A DNA stretch of 64,000 bases, from contig OX439042.1 of the NCBI GenBank assembly GCA_949317995.1, positions 12,131,174 through 12,195,173 of the forward strand, given 5' to 3'. The DNA is from Acholoe squamosa (taxonomy: Eukaryota > Annelida > Polychaeta > Phyllodocida > Polynoidae). Both the position numbers and the translations under genes were made by a program. The notes under the pieces were generated by a model, which was given only the letters and a program-made list of their open reading frames with translations, was not told where the DNA came from and ran no database searches. Below are positions 9,252-36,200 of this stretch, piece by piece (within the stretch, counting starts at the first letter, position 1; each line of letters opens with the position of its first letter).

Positions 9252-12200
9252 GTGAAGCATACCTAGTCACTTGCACTTTGAAAATGTCTTCTACATTTAT
9301 TCTAGGGATATCAGGTAAGAAATTAATACAAAATGGAGGAAAAAGTGGTATTAACAACTTCGGCTCAGGCCGAGAACACCAAAGAATCTACCTTGTAAGA
9401 TACAGAAGTACCCCATATAAATGGCAAGGCTTATAGGTTGAATTTATACAATGCATTAATTAGAACAAAAGTTGTATTACTTTGAAAATCTTCTAGTATT
9501 TTCTCAAATTCAAGGTGTGTCTTACGTCTGAGGTTGCCTTATCCATGGAGTAGTATGGTAAGTAATAAACCACATGCTGTATGCATATGCGATGCAAAAT
9601 GCTACAATTGGGAGTTTTGGATAAGGATTGGCCACTACATAAAGTCTGTGATTCACCTGGGAGTTTAGACAATTTTGGTGTGTTGGTGAGTCTTCAGGTA
9701 GTGGAATAAAAATCCTTTACTCCCCCCCCCCACCCCACACACTGGAGGCGCAGAATATTTTTAAGGTTTTTCAGGGTAAGCTTTTACTGCCATCTTTTAC
9801 TTACATGTCTGGCGAAATATGACGTCTCATAGATCTATCATTACTGTCGGTGTTCTGGCAATAAAACAAGTTTGAGTTGAGTTTTAACAAGTTTATTGGC
9901 AGAAATCATACATGTACGTTTTTTCAGATCAGCCAAAACACGGCAACAGGAAAGAAATAGTGTAGCGCTCAATCAGGTTGTACAAAGTTACATCAGGCAG
10001 GCATCATTTTGGGTGTAGATCATTACGATATTACTAAAGACATAACTAAAGCCTCTTAGGGGCTGTATGTATCACCATGATTTGCACAAGTCGATTATCG
10101 GCAGGCAGCATGTATATTACATTTTTCAAAAATAATTGCGTAGTCTATCAAGTGACGGTTATACACCAAATACATTCAGATTTTGTTCATGAATTCTTTC
10201 TTACTGCCTATCTGCTGAGTATTTGCATCCAATTTGTCCCAAAGGACACACCCCCTGTACAGTGGTGACTTATCATACGTCAAACACCTGGATCTGGATA
10301 CCTTTAACTGTTTTTTAACATTGCTGCGCAAGTTCCTGGCAGGGAGTTTGACACAGTTTGGATCACAAGAAACATCATACATCATAGATAATAAGTTTTT
10401 ATCACGTCTAACCTTTAGCATTTTCATGTAAGTTCTAACATGGAGATCGTATATAGATATATCCCGAGTATTAAAGATTCGAAGACATAACCATAGGCAA
10501 TGATTCTGCATAAGTTGTAAGCGTCCAACACTGGATTTAGGACCACTTTCATGTAGAAAACTTGCATGTTCCAGCACAGGTAGAACCATTTGTTTGTATA
10601 AGGTCAGACACAGCTTATTATCAACAAATTTCCTTAACTGTCTTAATTGGTACATCTTGTGGTGGAAACTAGATATTATTTTTTCGTTGTTTCTCCGAAA
10701 ATTAAGACCACGATCAATGATAACACCAAGGTAATTGAATTCATCAACCACTTCAAGGCGCTTACCATCCAGTTCAGCACTCATTATACTCAAATTGTGT
10801 CTGGCATTAAGAAAATCACTTGCACACCATAACAACTTTGTTTTTTCATTATTGATAGTAAGCTTGAACAATTTACACCATTTACTGACTGTAATTTCCT
10901 TAGTACATGGTTGGGGTCGGTATCATTGACATAAATAGCGAGATCATCGGCCTACAAACAGAATTTGCAGGATTTTATAACCGATACTATACTATCAATA
11001 TATATTATAAATAATAACAGACCTAACACGGACCCTTGCGGGACGCCACACGTTACAGCCTCTTCAGCAGATACACGCCCATTGGCAGTAGCATATTGCT
11101 TTCTGTCCTTAAGATAAGAATTAAACCAGGATACACACTGTACAGATAAATGCAAATTCCTAAGCCTTCCTAGGAGGAGGGAGTGGTCGACAGTATCAAA
11201 AGCCTTTCTCAGATCTAGGAAGACTACAGCCGAGCACTCCCCCCTGTTAAATCCTTCAAATAGATCTTGAGTCAAAATATAAATAGCACCATTAGTAGAT
11301 CTACCTGGAACAAAGCCAAACTGTCTTTTAGATATAAAATCATTATCCAGTAAATACCTAATTAACTGGCGGTGGATTGATTTCTCAATTAGTTTCGAGA
11401 CAATATTGAGTTGACTCACTGGGCGCCAGTTTGAGATATTCAGCAAATCGCCTGACTTTGGCAACGGAATTACATTAGCTATTTTGAACATCTCCGGTAT
11501 GACACTATTAGTGATTGAACCATTAATTATTTGAAGTAGTATATGTGGGATATGTAACAACACGTTTTTCACCACATTTGCTCTGATGTGTTGAATACTC
11601 GATGATTTTACAGAGTTGTTACCGTTAATAATATTAGTGCAGGTTAATAAATCAATAGGCAACAATTCAAACAACTGGTCACATTCAGGGACATGGGAAA
11701 GTATAAAGTCAGTAATCCATCGATGGTCTGTACTGACAACTGGTATAAAGTCATATAAAGTCAATAAGTCATGTAAGCTATACAAGGAAAAGAAATATCT
11801 TCCAGGCCAATAAAGCAAGCGAAGCAAGGTGACCTCCAGAAGAAACGATGAATATAACATGAACATATGCACAAGCAGTCAGTACAAAGATGCACCAATA
11901 GGTGGCCCCACCTTGTCCATATCTAGAATATGCATTTGGTACTAGTAAACACCTCTAGGTGTCAGAGTAAAGCAGTGGATGAAATCCGTGTAGCAATACA
12001 CAAAACAATACATGTTTTGTTTCTACCCATATTTATAAACTATTTGACATAAAGGGAAAGCAGGCAGAGGCTTAGTCTTAGAGACTATCCATTAACGTGA
12101 GGATTACCGCCTGACGGGTATTGATTGTAAGGCATATGAAAGGTTTAAATGTCTGAAAGTTCTATATAAATAAAACCCTAATAAAACCTATTTGAAACCT

Positions 12201-15200: not shown

Positions 15201-18200
15201 GACACAAATAGTATTGGATGTGCTAGAATCAAACAATGGCTCTTTCTATCTGGCTTTTGGTCAGAGTCTCGCAACCTGATGCGCCTCCTGCCACCACTTG
15301 TGAGTGTATGGGAGATGTATTCTTGTTTGGCTGATATGACTTTGCCTAACGGGTATAAACCATGAAATGTATTGATTATCACATTTTGACAACATCTTAT
15401 TTTTTAATCAGCAAGCTTAATACTGGTACGTTTCACTGACAAAAACAAGCTATGCTGCATGGAAAACGATTTCTGCAAATGAGGATCCTTTCAAACATCC
15501 ATTTGACCCCTAACAACCTACTATACATTGCATTTCAGATAATCGGAACAGAGGTTCTTGTGGTTTTGTCTCAGTGTTCCAGCGTTACTGTACATAATTT
15601 CCAAATACACTCTCTATATAGATGCAGCTCAGAGGCTCTTTCAGTTAATGGAAATTTTCCTATCTTAGAGACCTGTGAAAGTTCTGTATACCCTGAGAGA
15701 TCCTGCCTGGGAAGATGTAGTTTATGCAGGGTATTCTGACATATTTGCTTCAACTTTTGAATAGGTGATATCCAACATGTGCAAGGACTATGTACAACCG
15801 ATAGCCATGATATTCGCAGGACACCTCGGTAAAACTGAGCTGGATGCTGTTGGCTTATCATGCTCGGTAATTATTACTTCTTTTCCACTTTCATCTAGTT
15901 TTGCTTTAAGAAAGGTGGCCAGTCCATTTCACAATGTCAGTATCAACAATCTTCAAATACAACGTGCAGGAATAATCTTAGAATAATGTATATTCTATGT
16001 ACCATCCACTTTAAGCTGATGATTAGTATAAATTAATGTTGTATTGTCAATCACTGAAGTTCACTATAGTGTTTGATTAAATGTTGGTTAAATATTTGAA
16101 CTTCTAAAATCCTAATTAAATTTTTGATTGTGACAATATCATTATGCAGTAGTAAGGTTGGGGATAATCAAAGTTATCAATGGAGACTAAGGGCACTGGA
16201 AGGCATTTCTCAGCATAGTGCAGTAATAGGGTTTGATACCAGTGCAATAATTAGTGATCACTAGATGGAGGGCTCTAATGGCTTTAGAGTGAGGGATCAC
16301 ACTACGATTTGGAATGGTCTATCATGCGATCTTTAGAAATGTCGTCTAGATCAAAGGTACTATTCCATCTTGCAAAATTACTGTTTGTCTCACCTTATCT
16401 CTGCAATTTAAAGAATCCCCTACAAGTAGTATATACATGCAAACTGAGCGCAATGGATTAGCTACTAACTAGGTCATGACCTACTGGTAGACCGGAAGTG
16501 ACCTAGTTTTAACCAATCAGAGGGCTGGATTTGACAGGAAGTGACGTCATAAGGTTATGACCTAGTTTTTTCGACCAATCAGAGAGCTGGATTTCATTTG
16601 ACCTAGTGACCTGACCTAGATGCATAAATTAAAAGAATTGTGCAATACCTAGAGCTGACCTACTTACAAACCGGAAGTGACCTACTAACCTACTTGCAAA
16701 AACGTATGACCTACGTATGAGGGTGTATTGTGCAATCCTTGAAAGAAATTACACAATAACCATGACTCATTTTCTGATGCAATGTTCCTATGAATTTACG
16801 CAATACTTATGACTCATTATTTTGATATGAGATTAAATGCAACAAAGACACAACTCGGTTTTTTAATTCAATCTTTTTATTTTTTCTTCCTATCAGAGTA
16901 CATGCTAGGTATGAATCATTATAATCAGATATGCTTTGCAAGCAGAGTACATGGATATTATATGGAAAATGAATTCTTGTTGCAGTACCAACTGCACCCG
17001 GTCTTGGCTGGAGTAGGACTTTGACTACGGTCCTCTAAGGCCCGCATTCTCTCCATTAAATCCTTCAAGGCCTTTCTTCCTATGTCGTTCTCCTCCAGGG
17101 CTACCACTTTGTCCATTAACTCGGCCATGATCATGAGAATCTTGTCTATTACTTCCGCCGTGCTCTGAAGCCCGTCTATCACGTCCAGTTCACGTTTAAC
17201 TTTTCCTTTCACCAAAAGATTGCTCACGTCTGCTTTGACTGCTACTTCTTCTGGACTCATCTCGAAATTCATTGCCTCTTCTTCTCTCTTTTTCTCAGGA
17301 AGGGCCTGACTATTTTGTCCATTAAGTTGAAGGGGACCTGAGAAAACCTTTTCACAGTGTGGTGTGGATCCTTGGTCCGACATGTTTCTATGAGGAAGTT
17401 AATGCAGTGGGCTCCACACGTTTTAGCGTAAAAGTTTTGCACTTGTTTTCTGCTGAACGACCCGTGACCATCTGACGACTTTTGCATGAACCTCTGGTGA
17501 TATATAGTAAATGGAGGTAAGCCATAGGGATCAAAGTAGAATACATTCCCGTTATGAGAAACGTAAAATGCCACCCAGTGCTGACCAGGTTTAGAGCTTG
17601 GATCTGTGTTACTGACGAAACATGTAGAGGGAATTGGTTTTTTAGGACATTGATTACTGGCAAAAGTTTCCAGGTAGAAACGCCTTGTGTGTGGATGGTT
17701 TCCCAGTGCACCTGTTATGTCTGAAGTTCTCATTTTTTTTTCTCAGTTCATGTGGTAGTCTGTGACAGGAAGACAGTCAGCCGTTAGTTGGATGTTGTTG
17801 TCGTAGAAGGAACACAAGACGGCAGATATGGCATGAGTAGTCGGGGCGGCAAACCTAAGGGAAATGCCCAGCTTTCCTTGCTTGATGAGATTTATACGAC
17901 TGTCTTCAGGTGCTCTGTCTGGGGTGAGGTCGAAAACAAAGAAGGAATACCCATCTTTGAAATCTTCCAAAGTTATGCCACAGTCTTGCCCCAAAGCCGA
18001 CAGCCCACTGTCTATGAACATTTGACTGTAGGCTCTGATGCAGTTGCCTGTTTCGAAGTCGGTCTTCAACTCAAACTTTTGATCGTCATATCTCACGCAT
18101 ATTTCCTTCACGTTGAAATGCCTGCAGTTGAAAGGATTTTCTGTCTTAGTCCCAGCAGCTGCTGTTTCCTTTATCATACACAAGACTATCCTGGTGGGGA

Positions 18201-21200
18201 TCTGAGTAGTGTCAGGTTGAGTCCAACTGTAGTCTTGTGAGCCGCCGTCCAAAGTGTGTTTAGTTACTTTACACCTGGCTATGTGATAGTTGAAAGGGCC
18301 CCAATGTGGATTCCTGACACTGCTGACGTGAGTTTTCACCACCTCGTCGTCGACACATTTTTGGAGAAGTGTCATTTCAGCTTTGGTGATTTTGACCCAG
18401 TAGTTTTGATCGGCTGCTTGCAACATGTAGTAATTGGGCTGATTTTTTTCGAATATGAACTTGATTTCACAGTTCGGAGGCAGCACCTTGCACTGTTTAA
18501 TTAAATCCAGGTGCGGCTTCATTACTAAGGCATGTTTGTTGCGGGCACTGAACTCTGCTCTCCGTGCCGTCCATCCAGCATTTTCGCCCGCTCTGGCTTC
18601 CATGTGACCACAGGTGTCTTTCATGTACTTTTGACACCCTTTCAACCGAGTCTCTTTGTCTTCTTTGTTGCAACAAATTGTGTCCAAAATGTAGGCCTTG
18701 AGACCATAGTCTTCATTGTTGCCGGTGACTTTCTCCCCATTTATCAGCAACTGACAGGAAGCAAAGAGAGCGTGTGCCAAGTTGTTGACTGGAGCAGCTT
18801 CTATGCCTACGGCAAGGTGAGTTGTTCCGTCTGCCGCCACGGCTTCCAGTTCCATGTACAGCTCAGTTTCTGAGAGGTCTGTGTACAGGTTGCTTGGTTC
18901 GAAGGTGAAGTCAAATGATTCAGTGTGTGGAGTCAGGGCATTGTTGGTAGTTTTGGTTATTTTTTGACACTTTAATATGTCCTTTTGAGTGACAGGCAAG
19001 GCGTGTAGGTCTAGTTCACCTACTGCACATACCTGACCCTTGGGATGAAGGAGACTCATGACTAGAACAAGGTCCTTCCTCTAGCTTGTCCTCTACCTCT
19101 GCCGCGTTGCCCCTTACGTCCTCCGCGCTTGCCGGTTGCTCGTCGTTTGACTGGAGGAGGTTCAGATGTACCTTTTATGTATCCTTGAGCAGAAGAAGCA
19201 GCCCTTTTGAGTAAGTTCTTCCCTGTTGCTTTACTTCTCCTAACTACACTTTTCTTGAAGCCTTTTCCTGATACCACGTCGGACAAGACTCCAGCTCCTG
19301 TAGTAAGCAAGGCTTTGCCTGCAGATTTGGCAGCTGAGCGTCCTATTTTACTTAAGAGGGGAACAGCTCCTCTCAGTAAACCACCTATTAACGAACCAAG
19401 TCCGTGCCCTCTTTGTCTGCCCCTGCCACCGTACGCTGGTAAAGCACCGTTCCCAAACTGTGATTTTCTGTAGTATTCAGCGTACTGACCCCTAGGGGCC
19501 AGGTATGGAGGTGTTCCATAGTAGTGAAGCATGGTAATATACTCCTATCCTTGAAGAGGTCTGAAGGCAAGTACCACCGACACTGATCCGCTTTCAAATG
19601 GTATCGGTTCCCCAGTCTTGTCTCTTAAGTATATCCCTATCTGTCTGAAGGTGGTTTTAGTGACTGGCAGATATATCAAGTTCTGGAAACTTATGGTCTG
19701 CATGTCACCGTTGTAGCGATTTATGTTGATTTGCCTCAGAAGGGGTGCTTTAGAGTCACCCACAAGACTGTGCTTGACTATGTCAGAGTACACGAAAGCA
19801 CATCGACTTTTGTACTGAAGGTCTACCACGTAGGGGCTTTGTGTTTTTCCACTTAGGAAAACACTTCCGTCAAAACCTAATTGTTTCCCTAAGTTTTCTG
19901 GGAGTTGCATGACCACACCAGGAGGCAAGGAAACTACACTTTTCATTGTGTATTTGTTGTAGTGAAACACGGTGGCTTTGTTGTTTTTCCTGTAGTTTCT
20001 TAGTTTTCTCACCAACATGCTCTGTAGTTTATTTATGGTCCTGTTCAAGTATCCTATCAACTCTGAGTTGCTTTCCAGGTTCACACCTTCTAAGGCAAAC
20101 ATATTGTAGATACTACCTTCCTTGAAGTAATACTTAGACAGGTATCTGCTAATTTCCTTGAAGCGTGTACATATTTTCACAGCCTGTAACTGACTGGGAG
20201 AGAGAGGAGAAACATTGGCAGAGTCTGTGAAGACGGCCTTTTCTTCAAAAAAAGAAAGAGACCTTTTTTCCCTGTCATCCATAGACATCACTTCAGCCAC
20301 AGCCGACGATATTTCCCTTTTCTCTCTGCCTGCCGTGTCACGCTCCCCCTCAGCCTCCTCCTCTTCCTTTTCCTCCTTCTCTGGCGTGGGTTGGTTAGAA
20401 GTGAATCCTCCAGATGGCGTCTCAGTCGCAGCAGCAGGAGTTGGTGGACTTTCACTTTCAGGACCAGCAGGAGGAATGGTTTCAGTCGATCCCACAGGGT
20501 TGACATGACGTAGGTTTTTTGTTATTTTTACTCCTCTCTTCAAAGCAGATTGGGCTGATAAATTTGATGTAGAGCTTGAAGCTCTACTGAAGACACTATG
20601 GGCTCCTGGTTTTTCCAGAGGAAAAAATTCTCTTCTGCGTTTGTTCAATAAAGCTACTACAGAGCGGAGGTTGTTTGTCAGGTCGTTTTCTCCCTGTACC
20701 AAGAGAATGGGTTCTTCTTTGACGTTGTACCACGTGGTAGGACAGGTTATTTCTTGAAGAGCACACTCTAACTGAGTAGGAGAGTTAATGTATTCTGCCA
20801 AAATTGTATTGTAACTAGTTAAAGTGTTGTCAGGAAAAACGTTCATAGATGAGTTACTAGGTAAAGTTAAGGTAAACGCCATTTGTTTATGTTCTTGACA
20901 GGTTCCCAAGAGTTAAACTTGTCTCCATAACCCTTCCACTTGATCAAGGCTTCTCTTTTCTTGCCTTTTCCTCTGTATTTTACTATTTTTTCTATGTTGT
21001 AGCGTCTTCCGTGACGGACTTGCACCTTTTGAACTTCAGGTTCGTAGAAGCTTCCTTTTATCTCTTCTCCAAGGAGATCTTTCAGGTTGTACCCTTTGGG
21101 CGAAATGTTGTCGACTGTGTATATTTCCTCAGTCCAGTTAGGTTCGTACCCTCTGTTAAATGTTTTCTTTGTTTTCAACATTCGCACTTGATTTTTTCTC

Positions 21201-24200
21201 TTCAACTGAAGGACAGGAACTTTTTTCTTTTGAGGTTGATCGTACAACCTGTAGAACAAGACTTCAGAGTTGTCTTTATTTATGTCTGAAGGGGCAGCTC
21301 CTAAGGATTTGTGGTAAGTCAAATTGTAGGACTTAACCAAGTCGGGCAGCAAGTCAACCCATTTGTAGTTATTGAAATGAGAGAAACATCTCCACATTTT
21401 TCCTTGTAAAGTAGAGTTGAACCTTTCGGCTAAGGCACACTTCACGTCGTCGTTCTCTCCTGTGAAAAAATTGATTTTTTGATCTTCACAGTGTTTTTTG
21501 AAAATTTTGTTGACAAACTCTTTGCCCTTGTCAGTTTGAATTTGTTGAGGTTTTCTTTCTTTGCTCATTTTTTTGAAAGCCTCTGTCACGTCATCAGCTC
21601 TCTTACTTTTCACAGGTTGTCCAAAACCATACCTTGAAAAAATATCTATTCCCGCTAGAATGTACTGGTATCCTTTGTTTTCCTTTGAAAATTCTCGCAT
21701 GTCTATGAGGTCAAGTTGCCACTGTTTGTCTATCCCCCATGTTTGTGTTTTTCTTCTTGGAAATCTTCTCTTGTAAGGTTTGTGTCTGGTGTAAGCGTCT
21801 ACATCTTCCAAAGCTTGTTCTATGTTTTTTTTCTTTGTTTTCTTGAAGTGATGACGTTGAAGTTTAGATACACTGGTGAAACTTCCAGGTTGTTCAGGAT
21901 CTGTGTAAAACCTGAGGACATCTTTTTTCAAAGCCTTGTGCGCCATATAAACTTACGTCCAGTTCCTTTTTGACTTACTTTCCTCTTCTTTATAGGGGAA
22001 GCTCTTTTCAAGGGACTGGCAGCAAAGGAAGGACTGTGCCCTGCAAAAGCCGACTTGTTTTTGACAAATTTTAAGGTGGGGTTCAGCCTTTTAACTGCTC
22101 TCATGAAAACCTGGCTTCCTTTAGGTTGGTCCTTTTTCAAAGACTTTGGTCGGGCAGCAAAAGCTAACAAATCTGTTATGTCAGTTCCAGGCACACGTTC
22201 CCCGTTAACATATATTTCTCCATCTCTGTTCCAATTCAAAATTTCACTTCCGTGACGAGATAATTCTCTGTAGAGATTTTTAGCAGTCGTTCTGTAACTT
22301 GCGGGTATTCTTTCTTTTATGTCGGCGTCCATACCCTCTGTGTTGTCTCTTGCACGAGGTTTAAATCCTTCCTCCCCTTTGAATTCGTCTACACTCTCTC
22401 CGTCTGAATCGTCAGGAAGTGGTGGATCGTCTCTAGTCTCTGTGAAAGTGTCGTCATCGTCGTCGCCGTCGTCGGTGTCTTCTAAAGAATTGTTTACACC
22501 CCTAGCAGCTGCTGCTGCTCCTGCAGGGCCTTGTCCTACTGCTCGACCAGGATAGGGACCTTCCCTACGTTGTCCTAAGGCCTTGGCTTTTTTAGTTAAA
22601 ATTCCCGACTTTATCATAAGTTGATTGTACTGCCTTAACTTTTCCTTCAGTTTGAGGTTAGGAGAGTTAAGCACCTCATGTGCTTTACTTTGAAGGTGGT
22701 TCAGGACTTGAACCAGGCTGGAATCAGGAGTTAAACCTTCTCTTAAAAGTTGAGTGCTGTAGTACTGGTCTTGAACACTAGGTCCAGGCTGGGGAGGAGA
22801 GGAAGGACTAACAAAAGTAGGGCTTTTTTCTCGGGGAACAAGATCCGCCCTTACGAGGGCCATCCTTGAATAAGACATGATTTTTATCGACCGGCTCCTA
22901 TGAGACCTGTTATCAGGGGTAAGGCCAGACCCAAAATGGTTCCCAAAAATCCACCCTTTTGCTCAAAGGTTTTCCTCTTCTGCTTAACGGTAGCCTTGTG
23001 CCTTGTGACTGACTTGAGTTCTTTCTTGTAGGGTGATAAACGTTTGACTGCGTCGGACTCGTTACGCAACAGGTTTTTGTTCATTACGTTGACGCAAATT
23101 TGACTCATCAACCTAATGACCTCATCGCTGAGACCTTTGATAATGTGGGAACACTCTGCCGAGGAACACTTGGATATGTGTTTCAACAAGTGGTAATGTT
23201 TCCTTATTGTTTTAAATTTTCCTCCAGAAGGAGATCTTTTGGTCACCATTCTATCTTTTTCTTTTCGAAGCTGAAGCTTGAGGAATGAAAACCAAGGTGT
23301 TCCAAGGAGTTGTTATGCTGTTTCTTACCCTAAGCTCGTTAGGTGTGCTCTGCTTAAAGTCCAATAGGATGTATGAATGTTTCTCTTTGGTTTCTGAGTT
23401 ATATACCTCCGTCAAAAAGGATTTCTGTCCTGGAAAGGCCTGTTTGCTAATGTGCCCTATCTGACTCATGTCTCTAGGGTTTTTAAAAACAACTAGGTAG
23501 TGTGCATTTAAGCTCAAGGTTCTGAAGGCAGGATTGTTGAAAAACAAGTTTTGAGTAATAAAAATTACACTTAAACTGCGATGGTGAGAGCCCACAGTGA
23601 AAAGTTTCATTATGGTGGGAACGTACTCGGGATCCATGAGATCGTCTATTACGACCAGTCCATGTTTAGTCACGTCTCTTTCATCCTCGAACAAAAAGTC
23701 TTCTGAAAGAAGACCTTTGTTAAACTTAACCCCCAACTTCACCATTTCGTCGAATCCATCTTGCCATTGACTGTAGCAGTAGTATATGTCGTGTATTTTT
23801 GGAGTAACAAGCTCGTCTACACCTTTAATCAACTTGAAAACAAGTTGACTTTTTCCACAAGAAGTAGGTCCAGCTATGATCATTGTGAAGGGGCTTTGTA
23901 GACGTGGGTCAAAAATGATCTCCTTTTCCTTGTGATCCATGTTGGACGATATCTTAAACCAAAGTGACCAAAGGAGCAACCTCGTCCTCTTTTAAACCAG
24001 TTGAACCCTTGTTCAAACCTTCCACGTAAAGAGCTACATCAGAAAGTCCCATGTTGTATAGACTGGCTATAAGGCAGCTTGGATGAGATATTTCTCTATA
24101 TTTCCAAACCATCAGAACTTCGAAAACAGGATTTGTGACACCTTTTTTCCCTGGAACAGGGGTGGATATGAGGTTAAGTTCGTGGTCGCTCAATCCAAGT

Positions 24201-27200
24201 TGAGTTCCCAGTTTCCTCCAGTCAAGCATTTTGAACTTGTCTGCCAGGTTGACGAACAAAGTATCAACTTTCCACTGTTCTGGAGGAATTTCACAATGGT
24301 CCACTACGTTGTAATATCCCATGTACCATCTACAATAATCAGTTAGATCGTAACGACCTATGTCACTTAATGCATGTCTCAATACCATCCACTTGCAACG
24401 CACGTTCTTTCTGCTCCATGAAATAAGCATTTCTCTCCCCATAGAACGAAGAGACGGTATTTTTTCCATGTAATCCATTAAACTTAGTCTAAGTCCTAAG
24501 TAAACCCCTAATCGAGGGTAGTCTTTTTCCGATATTTTTTCACTGATCTTGAATAACAACTCGTCCGAAAGGTGAAACTCCATAGCAACCAAAAAAAAGG
24601 TGTTCAGCTAGTAAGGTAGGCAGGTAGGAAGGCAGGTAGGTTATGACAGGCTAGAAAGCATACAGTTAACTTATATAGGGTAGGGTAGGGTAGGGTAGGG
24701 TAGGGTAGGTGGGTAGGTAGTTTAGGTGGGTGGGTGGGTGGGTGGGTTAGGTGGGTTATTTGGGCGGCCAGCCCGGGCCAACAAGCCCCAAACCCCCCAT
24801 ACTTGAGGGGTGCCCCCACCCCCCCACCCCATAGTTTTTTAAACCCACCCCCACCCATTCCTACCCTACCCTACCCTACCCTACCCTATTCTATGTTATC
24901 CTACCCTATTCTATCCTATTCTATATAGCTCTTCCATTCCCTTCCCCCTGTTTAGGTAAGCCTGTTACATCGTTCTTCGTTCGTTTAAATTTGTTATGAC
25001 GTTGAGTGTAAAGCGAGCTGATTGTGGTGAAAACAGTGAGTAAGGGAGATAAGCTGGGTGCACCACATAGCCAGATAAAACCAAACTTTTTCTTTCTCCT
25101 CTACACTGAAACGATCCAGGGACGATGATGGGATGTGAAATATGGGGCAGGAGGAAAACAAAGTTTTGGTTTCTAAGCACTCAGCTAGAAGTTCCAAAAT
25201 AGACATGAAGAAATGAAGACGCTGGTTAAGTAGGCGGGGATTTTCTTTGGCGTGATGCTCTTCTGCCGCTTTCAATGCTTCCAAATGGAAGGGGTTTTTC
25301 AGTGGGCCCTTTCCCTTTCTTCCATGCTTCAGGGCATAACCCAAGGTTTCCACCGCTGAAAATTTCGACAAGTTATGACTCAAAACCATTTTCCTCAAGG
25401 TTTTTCTGTCTTTGGATGTAAAACTTGATTCCACTGAAGAAAAAACTAAGTATAATTTTTTCCGGTGAAGAACACATTCTTTCAAGTATTTGCACACGTA
25501 CCTGAAACAAATTGAAGAGCAACATATAATTTCATTTCTTTCCCTCACGTATGTCAGAACTTGAGTGTCGTCGGGGTGACGTTGTTCTAATACACGCTGC
25601 AGGGAGTAACGCGACATAGTAGGGCGAAGGTTGTTGTGTCAAATAACGATGGTTTAGTCCCCGTTTAACCTTTATAGGAAACCTGTCAGTCTTTCCTTAT
25701 CGCACTTTCCTGAAATGATTTATTGCTCAAGGACGAAACAAACGTCAGGGTCAGTGCCTGAGCGTTTTGAAAAGAGGGGAAAACATGTGGAAGGGTGGGT
25801 TTGGCCCAGGGGCCTTACCCGGAGGATCATCGTTTATTTTTGTTCAGTTTTATTAGGAGGACCAAAAATTAGATACGGGGTAGGCTGTTACCACCTTCAG
25901 CTGACCTTTTTCATGGGAGGTAGTTATTTCAGTTATAACTCTCACAACATGACAGCATCCATGGTAATTGTGTCCAATCTCTGTCCTGAATCCTCTTTCA
26001 TAGAAAATTTTTGAACCTAAAGAGTGTGTAATTTTGTCTGGGTGAAGTAAAGTGGCTTTAATTAAAGCCTTCACCATAGTAGAATCGATGAAAACTGAAT
26101 TACCAGGCCCTCCCCCCAAAGGTTGATCCCTTAGAAAAAAGGGTTTTTGTCTGTCTGAAATGAATTTCTTTGAACTTCCAGAGGAAATGGAATGTCTAGA
26201 CATCAAGTGTACCATGGCACCATGTCCCAAAAGAACACCTGAAAAAAAACTTTCCCCATTTTCTGAGATAAGTTTTTTCACAGAGGGTCCACTAGGAACC
26301 AATGCAGTGGTTTGGTTGTGCAAGAAGCATTGTTTGAAGTTACAGTTAGGAGGGATGTAAAGATCCCTGTTAAAATTTTCAGGACAGAATTTCCACACAG
26401 CCCACACCTTACCTTCTTCTACGCCCCTCCTGATGTCTGAAATAAACACCTCCTGACGCCTTTTGTGACCTACGGTCAAAGACAAAGGCAAAGGACAAAA
26501 GTTAGCCATGTCTGCTTGAGAGAAGCTAGTTCTAATAAATGACGAATGGTCTGCGTTAATCACAGAATGGCAACAACAAGATTCGTTTTACAAGCCTCAC
26601 CCTGAACGTTGACTGAGCGTTATCACGTTTTTTTATTTGAGTTAAGCTTTTTACTTTTTTCCAAAACAACACTGACTAAGTGTAAAACATACTATGAATG
26701 GAAAAGCACGGTTATCTACGACTCATGGACGTGGTTGTACGTTATCTGAACGACAAGGGAACGTCCCAGCATCGTATCAGGATAGTTACTATAAAGTAGG
26801 CTTGAGCTGCTCAATCTTCATCAAACCTTTTCTGACGTTTGTCTGCTGTTCGCCGTCCTGCTCCTGCACCTTCCAGCCCTGCCACCCTTTCATCTTCAAG
26901 GAGAACAATGCCTGGTCGCATGAAGACGGGACTTAGTGTCAGGAGAGGAGGAGCTAAAAAACTGGCTCCACTAACTTTTACTACTTCTAAACAGACAGTG
27001 GAAAAGGCGTCGGGCATCGCCCCTCCTCCTACCTCTCCAGCCTCACCTGATAAACCACCTGCAACTCCTGCTCGGCTTCCAACTGAAGTGCCTGATGCAG
27101 GAGAACAGGAAGCCGCTCTTGCAGCTCTTCATGGCGAAATCACTGATTTCCTGGATCGCGTCCGGGATCGCTCTCCTCAGGAAGCTGGCGACGGCGATTT

Positions 27201-30200
27201 TGACATCAGGGAATACATCAATCCCCCGGCACCTTTGAACTACCAACCCCCCACTGAAGCACCTACGTCCGCCTCTTACTCGCCCGTGACTCCGGAGGAA
27301 CCTTCTCCCCAGGTCAGTCCAATAAAGGTTATAGACCTTACAACCTCATCACCGGCAGTCAAACCCATAGAAGTGGTGGACTTAACACAAGGGACACCTT
27401 CACCTGCTCACCGCGGGGGGTATTCGCAGGTAGAGGTTATAGATTTGACCGGCCCTTCTCCTCTGTACTCTCTCCCGGTTCCGGTAGAGGAGCTGCTTCT
27501 TAAAAGCCCGCCGGAAAAAAGAAACTGTTCCAGTGAGAGAGAAGGGGAGCCTAAGAAAAAAGACAGAAGCGCGCCTACCACAAGAAAACCCCTGTCTCTA
27601 CCCCTGCTTCAGTTTCCTCAGCGACTTCATCCTATGGTGCCGAGCCAATTGGTTCTGTCCCAGGTGTTCCTTCTTCTAAAGACAAGTCACACAGGCAAAA
27701 GTTTGGGGAGGGCACTGCCCCCAGTTCTTCCAGCAAGCTTGTGGGCTTTAGGTCAGTGCCTTTGGTGGCAAAAAAGTGGCCTGCTCGATTTGGTTTCCAA
27801 GAAAAGTCACCTGCCCCCGACCAAGTTTTTTATCCGGAAGGGGATAACAACGCCTGCATAGAAATATACAGGGAACCTAGCATCAGGGGAGTATGCTTGA
27901 GGACCTACCTGGACAAACCTTACGAGCGGTGCTTAAACCTAGAGGCGCGTGAATTCAGGAACTTAGTGGACCAGATAGAGTGCATCCTAGGAAAGTACAA
28001 GGAGTTACACCGCCTAGCTGCCCTTGGAGAGAGGAAGGTGGATAATCTTTTGTTGTCCTTGAACCAAGACTGCACCGACCCCAGTGGAGGCCGGGCTATG
28101 ATCCTGGTAAACTTGTACAAGGGAACTCCTAAAGTTCACATAGGAACAACCAGCTACGTGGAGGAAATGAACGCCTCGGTGTCTTCCAGCTTCAGAATGC
28201 CCCCCTCAGCCACACACTGCGGACACACTGTGTCCCCCTTCATTCTGGAGGACATAAAATCACGAGTTGGTCCCTTCCTAGACGAAACGACCGATTTCTA
28301 CTCTGGGTAAGTGGTCAACTTTGTATAGTGTCTGGTCAACAGCTCCTTGTTCAGTGCTTTTACATTATCATGTATATCAGCTAATTTGTAGTTAGATTTA
28401 AATGTACTCCGTTTTTAGTCAACATAGCCCAGCGTAGGTTTAAGTTCCATATGTACTCCATGTATACTTAGGTTAGGTTTTAGTTATAAGTTTGTATATT
28501 GAACATAAAGTGAAACAAGAAAAAGAAACCTTAAAAAAATGCCGCCCAAAAAGGTAAAACAACTTTACACCGTCAACTGTCCAATGTGTAACACCCCTAG
28601 ACCTCCACGTTTGGTCACTGTAGAAAACAGTGGAAAAACTTTATGTAACTCAGATTCTTGTAGAAGAGAAACTTTTTCCGACAGCTTAGAACTTCCAAAA
28701 GAAATAGAAAAAAATTCTTTGCATAAAAGCAGTTACCGTGACAACTTCAAGTCCATAGCTTCAGGTTTGGCTGTGCTTGGTAAGCTTCAGTCCATTTTCA
28801 ACGTCAGAATGACAAGTTTCAACAAAGACTTGGGAGCCAAACAGGTAATAGAGGCGCTTACCTCTATTCATAGAAATCAAGTTATGGCTTACAAAGTGGC
28901 TGTCTCTTTTGGAAGGTTGTTGTCTTCCTCTAAGGAGGAAGAAGAAGAGAAAGTCATGTACTTTCATGCTTCTGCCAACAACTCGTCTTTGTTCTATGAC
29001 AGTGAAAGTCATAGAGACCCTTACATTTTTATAAGGGACGACAAAGACTTTGCAGAGTGTTTAGATTTAATAGAAAACAACATTAAAGAAGACACTCAAA
29101 GACCCTCTACTAAATGGAGTGTAATAGGCAACGTGAACGCCAACATCACACTCATAAGGGCTACGGGAGGAGAATATCTTTTAGGTAAAATGAAAACTGT
29201 TCCACCAGGTTTAAGACAAAGAGGAATGCAACACTTTCACAGAGACCCTAAAACCAAAAGGGCGTACAAGGACAATTTGTGTTTCTTTAGATGTCTGTCT
29301 TTCTTCCTGTATGAATCTTTAGAAAAAACTCAAGAGCTTTTCCTTGAAGCCTATCCAGGGGTGAACAAGGAGACTTTTGAGGGTGTTAACATAAGAGATT
29401 TAGACAGGTTAGAAAAAATGTTTGAAGTTAACATAAGAATTTTTTACCTTCCCTCTTTTGGTAAAAGAAAGGGGCGACCTAAAATTATAAGGTCAAACAT
29501 GTGTTCATCCAAAAAAATCATGAACTTGAACTTACACAGAAACCATGTAAGTTTAATAACTAACATGGGACTGTATGGTAAAATGTACCCCTGTGAAAAG
29601 TGTCATAAAGTTTTCACTCGTAGCTTCCTTTTGAAACAACACAATGGGGTGAAAAAAGATTGCACCAAAGTCAGCTTCAGGTACAAAGGTGGAGCATACA
29701 ATCCATCCAAAACAGTTTTTCAAGTTTTAGAGGAACTGGGAATAGTTTGTTCACCTGAGAAAAAAATATACCCCTATAAAATTGTTTTTGACTTTGAAAG
29801 CTATTTCGTCCAACCTGAAAATTCGTACCCAGAAAATGCTAACACTGTGATAGAAAAAACTCACATACCCCTTTCTGCCAGTGTAGCTTCTGATTTTCCT
29901 GGGCATACAGAACCAGTGTGTTTTGTCAGAAATTCCAACAGGGACGACGATCCTTTGGTTAAAAATGTGTTGGAACACATAAACAACTTGGGGCAGTTGA
30001 TAGGAGAACAGGTGAAAGAGAATTTTAGAGATGTTTTAGACGAACTAGACTCTCTAGAAGAAAAACAAAAGGAACTAGAACATAAAGCTAGCAAAGTTTT
30101 TCCAGCAAAGAACAAAAAAAATCCAAAAAAAAAAATCTCCCATGTTCTTGAAGTGAAGGAAAAACTTCTTACCTACATAGAAAGAGTCCCTGTTCTAGGT

Positions 30201-33200
30201 TTCAACTCTGGAAAGTATGACATTAATTTGATAAAAAAGGAATTTCATTCTTTTTTTATAGACACAGACAAGACAGAAATGAAAACCATAAAAAAATGCA
30301 ACAAGTACATAGCAGTGTACACAGACCATCTTCTTTTCCTTGACATGTTTAACTATTTGGCACCAGGTTATTCCTACGCAAACTACCTGAAAGCCTTTCT
30401 AAAAGGGAAAGCTGAAAAAGGTTTTTTTCCCTACGAGTGGATGGACAACATAAGAAAACTGAACAACAAAGCTCTTCCTCCACGCCACTGCTTCTACAGT
30501 TCTTTGTCGGGTGGTGGAATAAGCAAATAAGATTATCTTGAATGTAAAAAGGTCTGGACAGAAAACAAAATGAAAACTATGAAGGACTACTTGATATATT
30601 ACAACAACCTGGATGTTAAACCCTTTGTTTTAGCCATAAACGAGCACACAAAATTTTTTATAGATCGTGGGGTAGACATGTTCAAAGACGGTTTAACTTT
30701 GCCAGGTTTAACCTTAAAGTTTCTTTTCAACAACACTGCACCTAATGCCACTCCTTACATTCTTTTTGGTGAGAAAGAAAAGGATGTTCACTCCTTGCTC
30801 AGACGCAACTTAGTAGGGGGTCCCTCTATTATTTTTCACAGACATCACAAAAGTGGAGAAACAAGAATAAGACAAAAAAAAATACGGGTCACAAAGCAAA
30901 GTATGCAGACACATAGTAGGGGTAGATGCTAACAGCTTGTACCTCAAGTGCATGGGTGAAGAGCACTGCACAGGTTATTATGTGGTGCGCAGGAAAGAAA
31001 ACGATTTTCAAGCTGTCTGCAGTCAACCATTTAGCTACTCAGCCACAGAATGGTTGCGATACAAAACTGTGACAGACAAAGTGAAGATATTACACCAATA
31101 CAACTACGGGGAAGTAGTATTGGGTTCAAGGAAAATAAAAGTGGACGGCTATGATCCAGCTTCAAAAAAAGTATACCAGTTTCACGGGTGCTACTGGCAT
31201 GGTCACATATGTCACCTCACTAAATCAGTTTTGAGAGACCCCAATGGAAAGGCATGGTTAGAAGAAAAAAACCAAAATACCATTTTGACTACCCTATATC
31301 TTCAGTCGTTAGGTTACCAAGTAGAGGAAAAGTATGAGTGTATGTGGTTGAAAGAAAAAACTGAAAACTTGTGCAGAGAAACAAAAAGTGAATGGGAAAT
31401 TAAAAGACCGTTGTGCCAAGGCAGAAAAAGTCAGGATGAAATACTGAGAGGGGTTTCTAAAGGAACAACTTTTGGACTTATCCAGGTAGACATAGAAACA
31501 CCTGAATCCTTGAAAGAAAAATTCAGTGAAATGACACCTATTTTCAAAAACTGTTTAGTAGGAAAAAAAGACGTAGGTGAACATATGAAACGTTACCTGG
31601 AAGCAGCAGGTAAGCTAAAACAACCGCAACGCCAACTTATAGGCAGCTACCACGCAGAGGGAATTTTGTTGGGAACTCCTCTCTTGAAGTAGTACCTGGA
31701 GAAAGGTTTGGTAGTTACGACAGTACACCTTCTCGTAGAATACACACCAGAACAGACTTTTTTACCCTTCATGGACGAAGTGACCAAAGCTAGGAGGAAG
31801 GGAGACGAAAATATAGACTGTAAGATTCTGTCAGATCTGTACAAACTTTTGGGAAATGGTTCATACGGAAAAACCATATGCAACAAACAAAACTTTGTTC
31901 AAACAAAGTATCTTCACCCCTCTAAGGCAAGACGTTTGGCCATGCACTGGTCAATGCAAGATGTGCAAGACATAAGTGACAACACGGTAGAACTGTCCTG
32001 TTTGCCCACCTCCATCACCTACGACCTCCCAGTTCAAATAGGGTTCATGGTATACCAATATGCCAAACTTAAAATGTTGGCTTTCTATTACGACTTTCTC
32101 CTTGAATACATAGACGAGAAAGATTTTGAAATGTGTGAAATGGACACTGACAGTTTTTACTTTGCTTTAAGTGCAGAGAAAATAGAAGACGTAATTATTC
32201 CTGAAAAACGTGAAGCTTTCTTCAGAGAACGTCACAAATGGTTGCCCTCTGAATCATGTGACAACAGTCACCACAGAGAGACCTATGTTCAGACCAAAGT
32301 TTTGGGTGAGCTGTGGCTGCCTCAACCATGCTGTAAGAGCCGTCTGGCGTTTGACAAGAGAACCCCCGGGTTATTCAAAGTGGAGTGGGAAGGTGATGAA
32401 ATGACTGCCTTGAACTCCAAATGTTACATAGGCACAGGAGTAAATGTGCCCGTTAAAATGAGTTGCAAAGGTGTAATTCAAAAACAAAACCCCCTGACCA
32501 CTGACAAGTACAAAGAAGTACTGGACAGTGAAAATGTTGTCACGGTAGTCAACAAAGGATTTAAAGTAGTTAACCACAGCGTTACGACTTACTCTCAAAG
32601 GAAACAAGGTCTAACCTATCAGTACATAAAGAGACAAGTATGTGAAGACGGTGTAAGCACCCTACCCCTTTCTATATAAAAAATGGTTTCTTTTTCTAGT
32701 TTCACTTCCAGTTGTACATTTCGTTGAAAGAAAAAATTTTAAACAAATTGTTCAAATGACCAAATTTCCTTCATAGAAAACAGTGTTAAAATGGAAAATG
32801 TTCATTTGAAAAATTGTTCAAACGAACATTTGTTCAAATGAACATTTTTTCCCATAGAAAACAGTGTTAAAATGGAAAATGTTCATTTGAACAATTGTTC
32901 AAACGAACATTTGTTCAAATGAACATTTTTCCCCATAGAAAACAGTGTTAAAATGGAAAATGTTCATTTAAACAATTGCATATTAGATAGGGAAAACGTT
33001 AAGCCCAATTAGAGATGTATAGACTGATTTATCATCATGCTGCAACCAAAAGTGTGTTTGTGTAATTTTCTAGGAAATTTGTCTCACGCCCAAAGATGTG
33101 ACTCTAGGTCAAATATAAATGCATTACATGGACCAATGAAATATGGTGTGTTCCACCTATGTGCATAAAATAATTTTAGGCTGGGTCTCATATAGAGCTG

Positions 33201-36200
33201 CTGAGATGGATTAATGTGTGCTGGGGTAGTTTTCAGGGAGAATCGTCTCACGCCCTATTCACACATAAGTGTCAATAAAACTCTCTGGCTTTTAATATTT
33301 AACCATCTTTCTTATCATCCCTAAGTACCTAACTAGGTCAGATGAATAGATGCCTATCTATCTGACCTAGTTGTTGCTTATGCGGGCTAGTGGGGATGGA
33401 TGTTACTCAAATTTTGTTTCAAATTCCCAATTTTGACCTATAATCAGACCAGTATTGGCGATGCATATTGGCTTCAGAATGTACGGAGCTAAAGATAAAT
33501 TATCTATGTTATCATTCTTCCACTACAGCTAATCAGTAAGGAAACAATATAAAATACTGCATTTAAACATATGCAGCTACTGATTATGTACTGGTTGGTT
33601 ACATTAAAGCTGCTATACGGACTGATATACATAGCTGGTTTTGATGATACTAATTCTGGTCTATTACCACATTGCATAATGTATATGGACTTGGGAAACT
33701 ATTTAAGGTCGAATCCACCTACTGTGGTCATAGATCATTTCGCACTGTACATATTTTCGCGGATTTCAAGGAAGTGTAAAATCCGTGAATTTATGTCCAT
33801 AGTGAATATACCTATCATATAGAATAGCAATAGCTAATCTTGAAAATCTGCGAATTCAAAATTCACGTAAAATAGGGCCTTTTATCAATTCCGTGAAAAT
33901 TTATACCAGTGAAAATATCAGCGACCACAGTATTACATTACAATATTCACTGTTGGTAGGACTTTTTTACAAACATAGGTCCAGAATTAGCTGAGAAAAT
34001 CAATGATAGATGGTTCTACGCAGGAATAACTTATGACAACGATTTTTTGCTTAAAGAGGTCGCTGAGAAGGAAATCAAAGGGGATCAATATTAATAAGTT
34101 ATCAGCAATTAAAAATGTATCTTCAAGAGTATTGAAGGATGCTCTCCTTGCCCTACCCTATCATCTAACTTATATATTAAATCTGTCTATTAATACATTG
34201 GTATTCCCGGATTCTTGGAAAATAGCCACTATTATCCAACTTCCTGATGGCGACTCATTCGATGTTAGTAACTATAGACCAGTTTCACTACTACCCCTCC
34301 CTGGCCAATTATTTGAAAAATTAATCCATATGCAAGTTTCCCATTATTTAGAGGAGCACAAGATTTTAGATCCACAACAAGGTGGATTTAGGAAAAACTG
34401 CAATCACAGCATCAGAATTCTTAGATGATATTTATAACGCAATAGACAATAGGTTAGTCACTAAAGCAATATTTATCGACCTTAAAAAAGGATTTGACAC
34501 CATAGATCACAACATTTTATTAAACAAATTAGCTAAATTAGGATTTGTGCATAAGTCAATAATTTGGTTTAAAAATTATCTAACAAACAGACATCAAAGA
34601 ACTCAGGCAAACAACCAACTATCCACTCACCAACTTATTGAATGTGGAGTACCCCAGGGTAGTACCCTGGGTCCTCTTTTGTTCTTATTGTACATCAACG
34701 ATGTACCCACTTTACTTAGTATAGCCAAATATAAATTATATGCTGATGATACAGTAATTTACTACAATGCCAATACTATAGATGGGTGCAATCTCATTCT
34801 CTCAAGGGATATGTCAAATTATGCCAAGTGGTGTAGAGGAAATTAACTTACCTTGAATCAGAAAAAAACAAAAGAAATGATTTTTGCTTCTAGGCCGGTA
34901 CTAAAAAAGTGAAGAACTTATCAGTTAAATTTCATTGGGCCACACCCCCAATTATAAATACCTAGGTTTTATCCTATTAAATTTCAGTAAGCATATGTCT
35001 CAATTGAGACAAAATGTGCTACACAAATCTTACTTGTTAGCTAGGATGAGACCACTCCTATTGGTTGATGCTAGTATTAATATATTTAAAACAATGGTAG
35101 CCCCATATTTTGACTATGGTGACTGCATATATTCGCGGGCTAAGAATAATCTCCTTGAAAGGCTACAAGTTATACAAAACAGGAACCTAAGAGTGGCATT
35201 AAAGAGAGATAAGTTCTTTGATGTTGATGACCTCCATAAAGATACAGAAATCTTAAAGCTTTGCTTTAGAAGAAGGGTTAATTTGGCCAAGGTAGGGTTC
35301 AGAAGAGCAAAAATGCAAAGGTATGTAGATGATAGACCAATCCCCACCAGAGCCAGAGATGCTACAATCCTGAAGCCCAGAAAGCCCGAATGCTCCAAGT
35401 ATAAGAAAAGTATTGAGTACTCAGCAGCGAAATGCTGGAATGGGCTACACAGCAATATTAGAAATATTGATGAATATAAAAAGTTTGGTGAAGCAGTAAA
35501 ACAGTTGTATGTGTGAGCATCCCATGTTCACTATCCTCAGGTCAATCATAGAAAGTTGGGAGGGGGGATAAGCTCTAGAGATATATGAACTGTATTTTCT
35601 ACTTTCTGTTAAATGTTTTCTGTTTCTTCTCTCTTTTTATTGAATTTGTGAGATCCCTGCCACCTATCTGTAAAAAAACCCAGGTTATCTGACCAGATTA
35701 TGTGAGGGAAAGCGATCTAGGACTGCAATAGGCAGCACCAGAGGCTCCCTCCCACATAAGGATGATCTATTTGTTTACCCATTATGTGATTATAATTGTA
35801 AGGTTATTTGAAATCAATTCTCTATATGGTTTATGTAATACACTGTGTAATATGTATTTGTTCGAGCTGCTAAATTTAAAACGACAAAATATTTCATGCT
35901 GTTCTAGAGGAGCATTGAAAAAAAAAAAACACATAGGTAACTATGTAACAATGTTTCCCAGAAATAAACACCATCTTTGAACTCAACGTTTTCCTACTAT
36001 CACCCTGGCCACAGATATACACAGAATAATGAGAGGGAGAATCGTCTCACTCCCAGGAAATTCGTCTAACACCCTGTTAGGCAGGCATGCATAAATACCA
36101 GGCCTTTTATATTTAACTATTGTCTTTATGGCCCATAGGTACCTACATATGAATGGAATAATAACTGTGAATCGCATTACCCTGGTACCTCCCAGGCTGG

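Follow-up and report, generated by a model that had tools for sequence, protein, structure and literature searches.

The tandem death-domain gene and its protein

We analysed a stretch of 64,000 nucleotides from the polychaete Acholoe squamosa (assembly GCA_949317995.1, contig OX439042.1, positions 12,131,174 to 12,195,173), which is called the window in the following. It contains a copy of a Polinton, a virus-like transposon, and within this copy lies a gene whose protein consists of two death domains:

23954..24583, minus strand: tandem death-domain gene, 209 amino acids, with a first death domain (DD1) at about residues 12-82 and a second (DD2) at about residues 112-184; identified by Pfam Death in two stretches; the death domain of FADD is the best PDB match of DD2 and of the profiles

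The first ATG of the minus-strand open reading frame (ORF) defines a gene running from 24583 to 23954 and a protein of 209 residues. The length of 212 residues in the original prediction presumed a start three codons upstream of this ATG. The whole protein matched the Pfam family Death (PF00531) in two stretches with an E-value of 1.1e-13 and 51.6 bits. Scanned separately, residues 1-96 reached 22.9 bits, which is barely above the curated cut-off of 22.6, and residues 97-209 reached 32.2 bits; the two death domains proposed earlier are thus both recovered. Death was the sole Pfam family found in the protein at E <= 1. At this threshold no caspase, kinase or TIR domain was matched, in agreement with the prediction, and neither half matched a death effector domain at E <= 10. 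Ten control proteins were made and six of them (five shuffles and one reversal of the 209-residue protein) were scanned; none of the six matched Death. The halves containing DD1 and DD2 share 22% identity in a global alignment, and their local alignment score was equalled by one out of 1000 shuffles.

The best PDB match of the second half is the death domain of FADD (E 0.007). A single-sequence PDB search with the first half alone gave no death domain at E <= 10; two glutathione-transferase-type chains appeared at E 1.4. With a profile combining both halves, 19 PDB sequences were found at E <= 1, of which 18 originate from death-domain proteins and one (NCKAP1) does not. Protein searches with the whole ORF (E <= 1) and with the second half (E <= 10) retrieved no relative. 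Structure was predicted for the whole protein and for the second half alone. For the whole protein, AlphaFold2 run on the single sequence without relatives gave a predicted local distance difference test score (pLDDT) of 38, which is uninformative. For the second half, the pLDDT was 60.5 and the predicted TM-score (pTM) 0.45; the model has a short helix followed by six helices in the order of a death domain. Submitted to Foldseek, it gave 50 rows at E <= 10. The top 15 were death domains from the proteins FADD, TNFR1 and DR3 (E-values from 0.052 upwards and hence none at or below 0.001; TM-scores by query length 0.29-0.44), and the lower rows mix other death-fold proteins with unrelated ones. 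Because the Foldseek scoring also uses sequence, this result is weak support for a death fold.

The Polinton in the window

Genes of the element were identified by means of Pfam and by comparison with eight related Polinton loci (L001-L008), which occur in records titled as bacterial bins and which we read as contamination. The best of these is L002, titled as an endosymbiont of the tubeworm Escarpia laminata. The following features were assigned:

16425..16818, no strand: left terminal region, starting with AGTAGT; counterpart of the terminal repeat in sister copies, with an approximate inner border
17269..17733, minus strand: adenovirus-type protease; Peptidase_C5 E 7e-4, slightly under the cut-off; relatives in Polinton loci and in families B and D (see below)
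17743..19059, minus strand: major capsid candidate; tblastn to L002, L006, L007 and the elements of families B and D; name inferred
19062..19532, minus strand: small ORF of the capsid block (pW-like); tblastn to L002 and L005; name inferred
19545..20882, minus strand: minor capsid (penton) candidate; tblastn to L001, L002, L004, L005 and L006; name inferred from gene order
20867..21946, minus strand: integrase with chromodomain; PF00665 and PF00385 above cut-off
21928..22878, minus strand: conserved Polinton ORF (X); tblastn matches in L001, L002 and L003, located after Y or between the ATPase and the integrase
22884..23249, minus strand: small conserved Polinton ORF (Y); matches L003 by tblastn (E 2e-11), where it likewise comes after the ATPase
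23251..23940, minus strand: packaging ATPase, starting 13 nucleotides past the death-domain gene's stop codon; 199 homologs at E <= 0.001, the best 98% identical
24994..25617, minus strand: DUF5662-like gene (U1), which accompanies the tandem death-domain gene as its partner; PF18907 E 5e-4
25853..26509, minus strand: accessory ORF (U2); no Pfam family at E <= 1
28539..32679, plus strand: DNA polymerase (PolB), in four ORFs in this copy; all four pieces match L002 by tblastn
32772..32978, no strand: tandem repeats of 81 bp; sister copies are homologous as far as 32978

On the strand of the death-domain gene, it is followed by the ATPase, Y, X, the integrase, the minor capsid candidate, the small capsid-block ORF, the major capsid candidate and the protease. 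The hallmarks of a Polinton are present: PolB, an rve integrase, a packaging ATPase, a protease and capsid genes, the latter named from gene order. The ATPase matched Pox_A32 and Adeno_IVa2 below their cut-offs.

When the window was compared with six sister copies, homology broke off on the left at 16422-16425 in all six, where AGTAGT begins, and on the right at 32978. Because the homology to the sister copies ends there, the right end is missing from the window copy, whereas the left end is kept. A search for terminal repeats inside the window had found none, and the missing right end was recognized later from the sister copies. These showed inverted terminal repeats in all six comparisons (370-399 bp, about 92% identity, ends AGTAGT...ACTACT), and five of the six have a 6-bp target duplication, the border of the sixth being guessed. 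Calculated from its borders, one sister copy on contig C8 spans about 18.4 kb. The claims that the gene lies inside a Polinton and adjoins its packaging ATPase were therefore correct: the core gene set, the inverted terminal repeats and the target duplications testify to the former, the 13 bases between stop codon and ATPase to the latter. In gene set, terminal repeats and target duplications the element resembles Polinton/Maverick elements and adintoviruses. Its AGTAGT end corresponds to what PMC8097293 reports for vertebrate Mavericks; according to the same paper, accessory regions flank the core genes in most elements.

The gene order of L002 is polymerase, ATPase, X, integrase, penton, small ORF, capsid and protease. 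ORFs matching the polymerase precede the ATPase on the same strand in six of the eight loci (L002, L003, L005-L008); in L008 the match is the second ORF before the ATPase, and L001 and L004 show too little to place the two genes relative to each other. In the window, the death-domain gene occupies this usual place of the polymerase, which does not share a strand with the ATPase as it does in the six loci where both genes are visible.

Copies, related families and selection

The genome of A. squamosa that was searched comprises 1.48 Gb in 63 contigs. The death-domain protein gave 2033 first-look candidates, 150 of which were scored; all 150 were full length, open and 98-100% identical. We refer to these copies as family A. 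ATPase and DUF5662-like matches, some of them partial, lay on either side in all 30 copies that were fetched. Among these, full-length frames open in one piece were counted 30 times for the death-domain gene, 27 times for the ATPase, 29 times for Y and 26 times for the DUF5662-like gene. The spacing of 13 nucleotides between death-domain gene and ATPase was the same in all 28 of these 30 copies in which it could be measured. In the 30 closest copies, variable codons comprised 19 synonymous changes and one nonsynonymous change; this count was set aside as a measure of selection, as it is biased by how the copies were picked.

A search of the same genome with Pfam Death yielded 1880 candidates. 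The 150 of these that were scored were all above the cut-off, and three had an internal stop. Groups of tied scores (39 rows at 45.9 bits, 44 at 42.1 and 20 at 40.9, by our own count) were read as families B, C and D, which surfaced only in this search. At least three further repeat families carry the pair of a death-domain gene and a DUF5662-like gene. For family B, 21 loci were read (18 tied rows and three scoring slightly higher): the tandem gene was present in 21, the DUF5662 gene in 20 and a dUTPase in 21. For families C and D, one locus each was read, in addition to L066, a broken locus that resembles C. The B, C and D proteins are likewise tandems of two death domains with 200-221 residues each; they are 25-28% identical to the window protein, and one member of each family matched Pfam Death with E-values of 1.7e-15, 1.4e-16 and 7.9e-16, respectively. 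A further match of the tandem proteins from loci L061 (B), L085 (C) and L086 (D) is the bacterial death-like domain bDLD3, which those of C and D match above and that of B below the cut-off.

An alignment profile of the four families supports the assignment. Its best PDB match was again FADD, now with an E-value of 8.4e-7, and all 23 PDB sequences found at E <= 0.001 were those of death-domain proteins (FADD, ankyrins, THOC1, PIDD/LRDD and RIPK1, all of which are established to contain death domains). At E <= 0.1, 27 out of 27 rows were proteins with death domains.

The window gene U1 scored 20.0 bits against PF18907, which is below the cut-off of 27; its homologs in families B and D reached 72.7 and 81 bits (E 3e-20 and 1e-22), and a partial copy from family C aligns with those of B and D. 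Because the DUF5662 gene constantly adjoins the death-domain gene, its steady place suggests a joint role. In the window, the two genes are separated by runs of the pentanucleotide CCCTA/TAGGG, which form an inverted repeat (24654-24915). In L061, L085 and L086, the tandem gene has one or two dUTPase genes behind it, identified by Pfam for B and D and by eye for C. Within 3.5 kb downstream of the B copy there is no ORF of at least 90 residues. Upstream, the B and D loci have a capsid gene with about 21-22% identity to that of the window and a protease gene with 27-31% identity. Because of these divergent genes, the B and D loci are, as judged from sequence comparison of one locus each, Polintons of another, divergent clade; the reading of carriers covered these two families.

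A search for the gene at the same place in other Polintons had been suggested with the prediction. Relatives do exist in families B, C and D of the same genome, but Death was matched at E <= 0.001 by none of 112 ORFs from eight more distant Polinton loci (117 were listed; the five left out are all polymerase-sized). Nor is the place fixed: in the window element the gene precedes the ATPase, and in those copies of B and D that were read it comes after the protease gene. No relative turned up in viral contigs when these were scanned with the death-domain gene, the ATPase, a profile of the ATPase, the capsid gene or the profile of all four families. Three matches from a search of phages, with E-values of 2-4, were taken as chance.

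These locations bear on the idea that the product is a virion or assembly protein, in which the death fold is reused as a packaging scaffold. It would explain the place before the ATPase, and it agrees with the constant 13-nucleotide spacing on the strand of the capsid block as well as with the B and D copies following the genes of the major capsid protein (MCP) and the protease. However, the variable position between elements and the lack of Death matches among the 112 ORFs speak against it, and the dUTPase neighbours of the B, C and D copies (C by eye) suggest an accessory region. We consider such a role improbable.

Selection was assessed by means of the ratio of nonsynonymous to synonymous substitution rates (dN/dS), determined according to Nei-Gojobori. 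For the death-domain gene, the values were 0.10 (B-D), 0.19 (B-C) and 0.22 (C-D). For comparison, the B-D value of the MCP was 0.10, the protease gave 0.28, the DUF5662 gene 0.26 and two dUTPase comparisons 0.48 and 0.53. Comparisons with family A were saturated: A-D gave 0.40 at a synonymous rate (dS) of 2.5, and no value resulted for A-B and A-C. The death-domain protein is under purifying selection. This constraint largely refutes the notion of a functionless passenger, a host gene caught by chance. The broken polymerase gene is in line with a passenger, as it indicates that the window copy is decaying, but besides the dN/dS values of 0.10-0.22 between families the presence of the gene in at least four repeat families, together with a conserved partner, contradicts it. 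We rejected this explanation as very hard to sustain.

Host relative, origin and proposed function

A host gene with two death domains is located at about 20.73 Mb of contig C17 (G000:C17, locus L059). In all four families, the best host match of DD1 is the first domain of L059 and that of DD2 is its second domain, so that the two proteins share the order of their domains. This comparison comprised nine host death domains from eight fetched loci, and a closer host gene may exist. The genes differ in that L059 carries its domains in two distinct open stretches with about 270 bases in between, which we read as exons; behind them comes a long low-complexity frame without a Pfam match at E <= 0.01. 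In two trees, DD1 of the families groups with the first host domain and DD2 with the second, at weak to moderate support (bootstrap values of 64-80 in one tree; 0.73-0.77 on the DD1 side in the other). We infer from these sequence relationships that a Polinton may have captured a spliced host message; the alternative is the reverse direction, a domestication by the host.

The best reading of these data, to which we give about an even chance, is that of a captured host two-death-domain adaptor that acts as a competitor. The gene would be an intron-free copy of the host gene, kept as an accessory gene of the Polinton. Death domains work through homotypic assembly, and contacts of this kind would attach the product to death-domain proteins of the host. 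Because it has nothing but its two death domains, it would fill places in a host oligomer without relaying the signal. The result would be a dampening of cell-death or immune signalling triggered by replication and packaging of the element.

This mechanism could be likened to that of the FLIP proteins. Viral FLIPs (MC159, MC160 and the vFLIPs of gammaherpesviruses) are, like the window protein, small and composed of two death-fold domains. PMC5580472 describes FLIP proteins as a tandem of two death effector domains and MC159 as having 241 residues and two such domains. In contrast, both halves of the window protein match Death, and the carriers of viral FLIPs are poxviruses and herpesviruses. 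Viral death-fold mimics also include pyrin and CARD types. FADD, which both DD2 and the family profile match best in PDB, is of similar length, but its first half is a death effector domain, whereas the first half of the window protein matches Death. PMC11071296 states that most mammal-associated adintoviruses have homologs of anti-apoptotic genes or candidate oncogenes; the word "death" is absent from the main text of PMC11071296 and of PMC8097293.

Several points weigh against a competitor. Viral death-fold proteins can also activate NF-kB, and the location in the capsid block before the ATPase makes a role in the particle possible. The dS values of the death-domain gene for B, C and D (1.4-1.7) are near saturation. 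The 150 scored family A copies were chosen by similarity to the query and are biased toward intact frames. In one tree the node placing the DD2 of family A has a support of 0.22. In addition, the structure predictions are weak, with pLDDT values of 38 and 60.5 and no Foldseek row at E <= 0.001.

A decoy or inhibitor role, as suggested in the original prediction, is an interpretation, and a particle or activator role also fits. As an activator, the protein would nucleate host death-domain assemblies and thereby turn on signalling for survival or transcription from which the element benefits. The same evidence for death domains, from Pfam and from the four-family profile, applies here, and viral tandem death-fold proteins act both ways. 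No recruiting or enzymatic part was detected by Pfam at E <= 1, however, and we regard activation as rather unlikely. A third possibility is that the product induces death of the host cell and thereby helps particle release. Oligomers of death domains can start caspase activation, as is established for FADD; yet neither a death effector domain nor a caspase-recruiting part was detected in the protein, which makes a death trigger quite improbable.

A more far-reaching and doubtful proposal concerns the partner of the death-domain gene. The DUF5662-like protein and the tandem death-domain mimic might constitute a counter-defence cassette, in which the former removes or modifies an upstream signal. 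Such a cassette would have moved between deep Polinton clades, and mobile elements would be the main carriers of the genome's death-domain genes, provided that most of the approximately 2000 first-look candidates are real.

In the full-text literature searches made, we found no precedent for a Polinton protein that consists of two death domains alone. No paper joined Polinton and death domain; tandem death domain, invertebrate and virus; or Polinton, death, dUTPase and immune. Because the Polinton protein closely follows a host gene with two death domains, the data suggest an interference of the element with cell-death or immune signalling of its host. A host counterpart, a partner gene and many copies allow for a direct test of whether Polintons fight such signalling; if this is true, it would support the view of Polintons as active viruses in animals.

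Further features were noticed in and around the elements. On the contig of L006, which belongs to a Limnohabitans bin and carries Polinton genes, a homolog of the TATA-binding protein is encoded at 11568-12122 on the minus strand (PF00352, E 1.3e-36). RNA scans of the window DNA, which have no bearing on the death-domain gene, gave one tRNA match with Rfam and none with ARAGORN. On either side of the window element, ORF fragments resembling reverse transcriptases of the non-LTR type were recognized by eye (10176-11866, minus strand; 34033-35516, plus strand). Upstream of the polymerase, an ORF on the plus strand (26908-27861) contains repeated VIDLT/VVDLT motifs, seen by eye, which resemble SUMO-interacting motifs.

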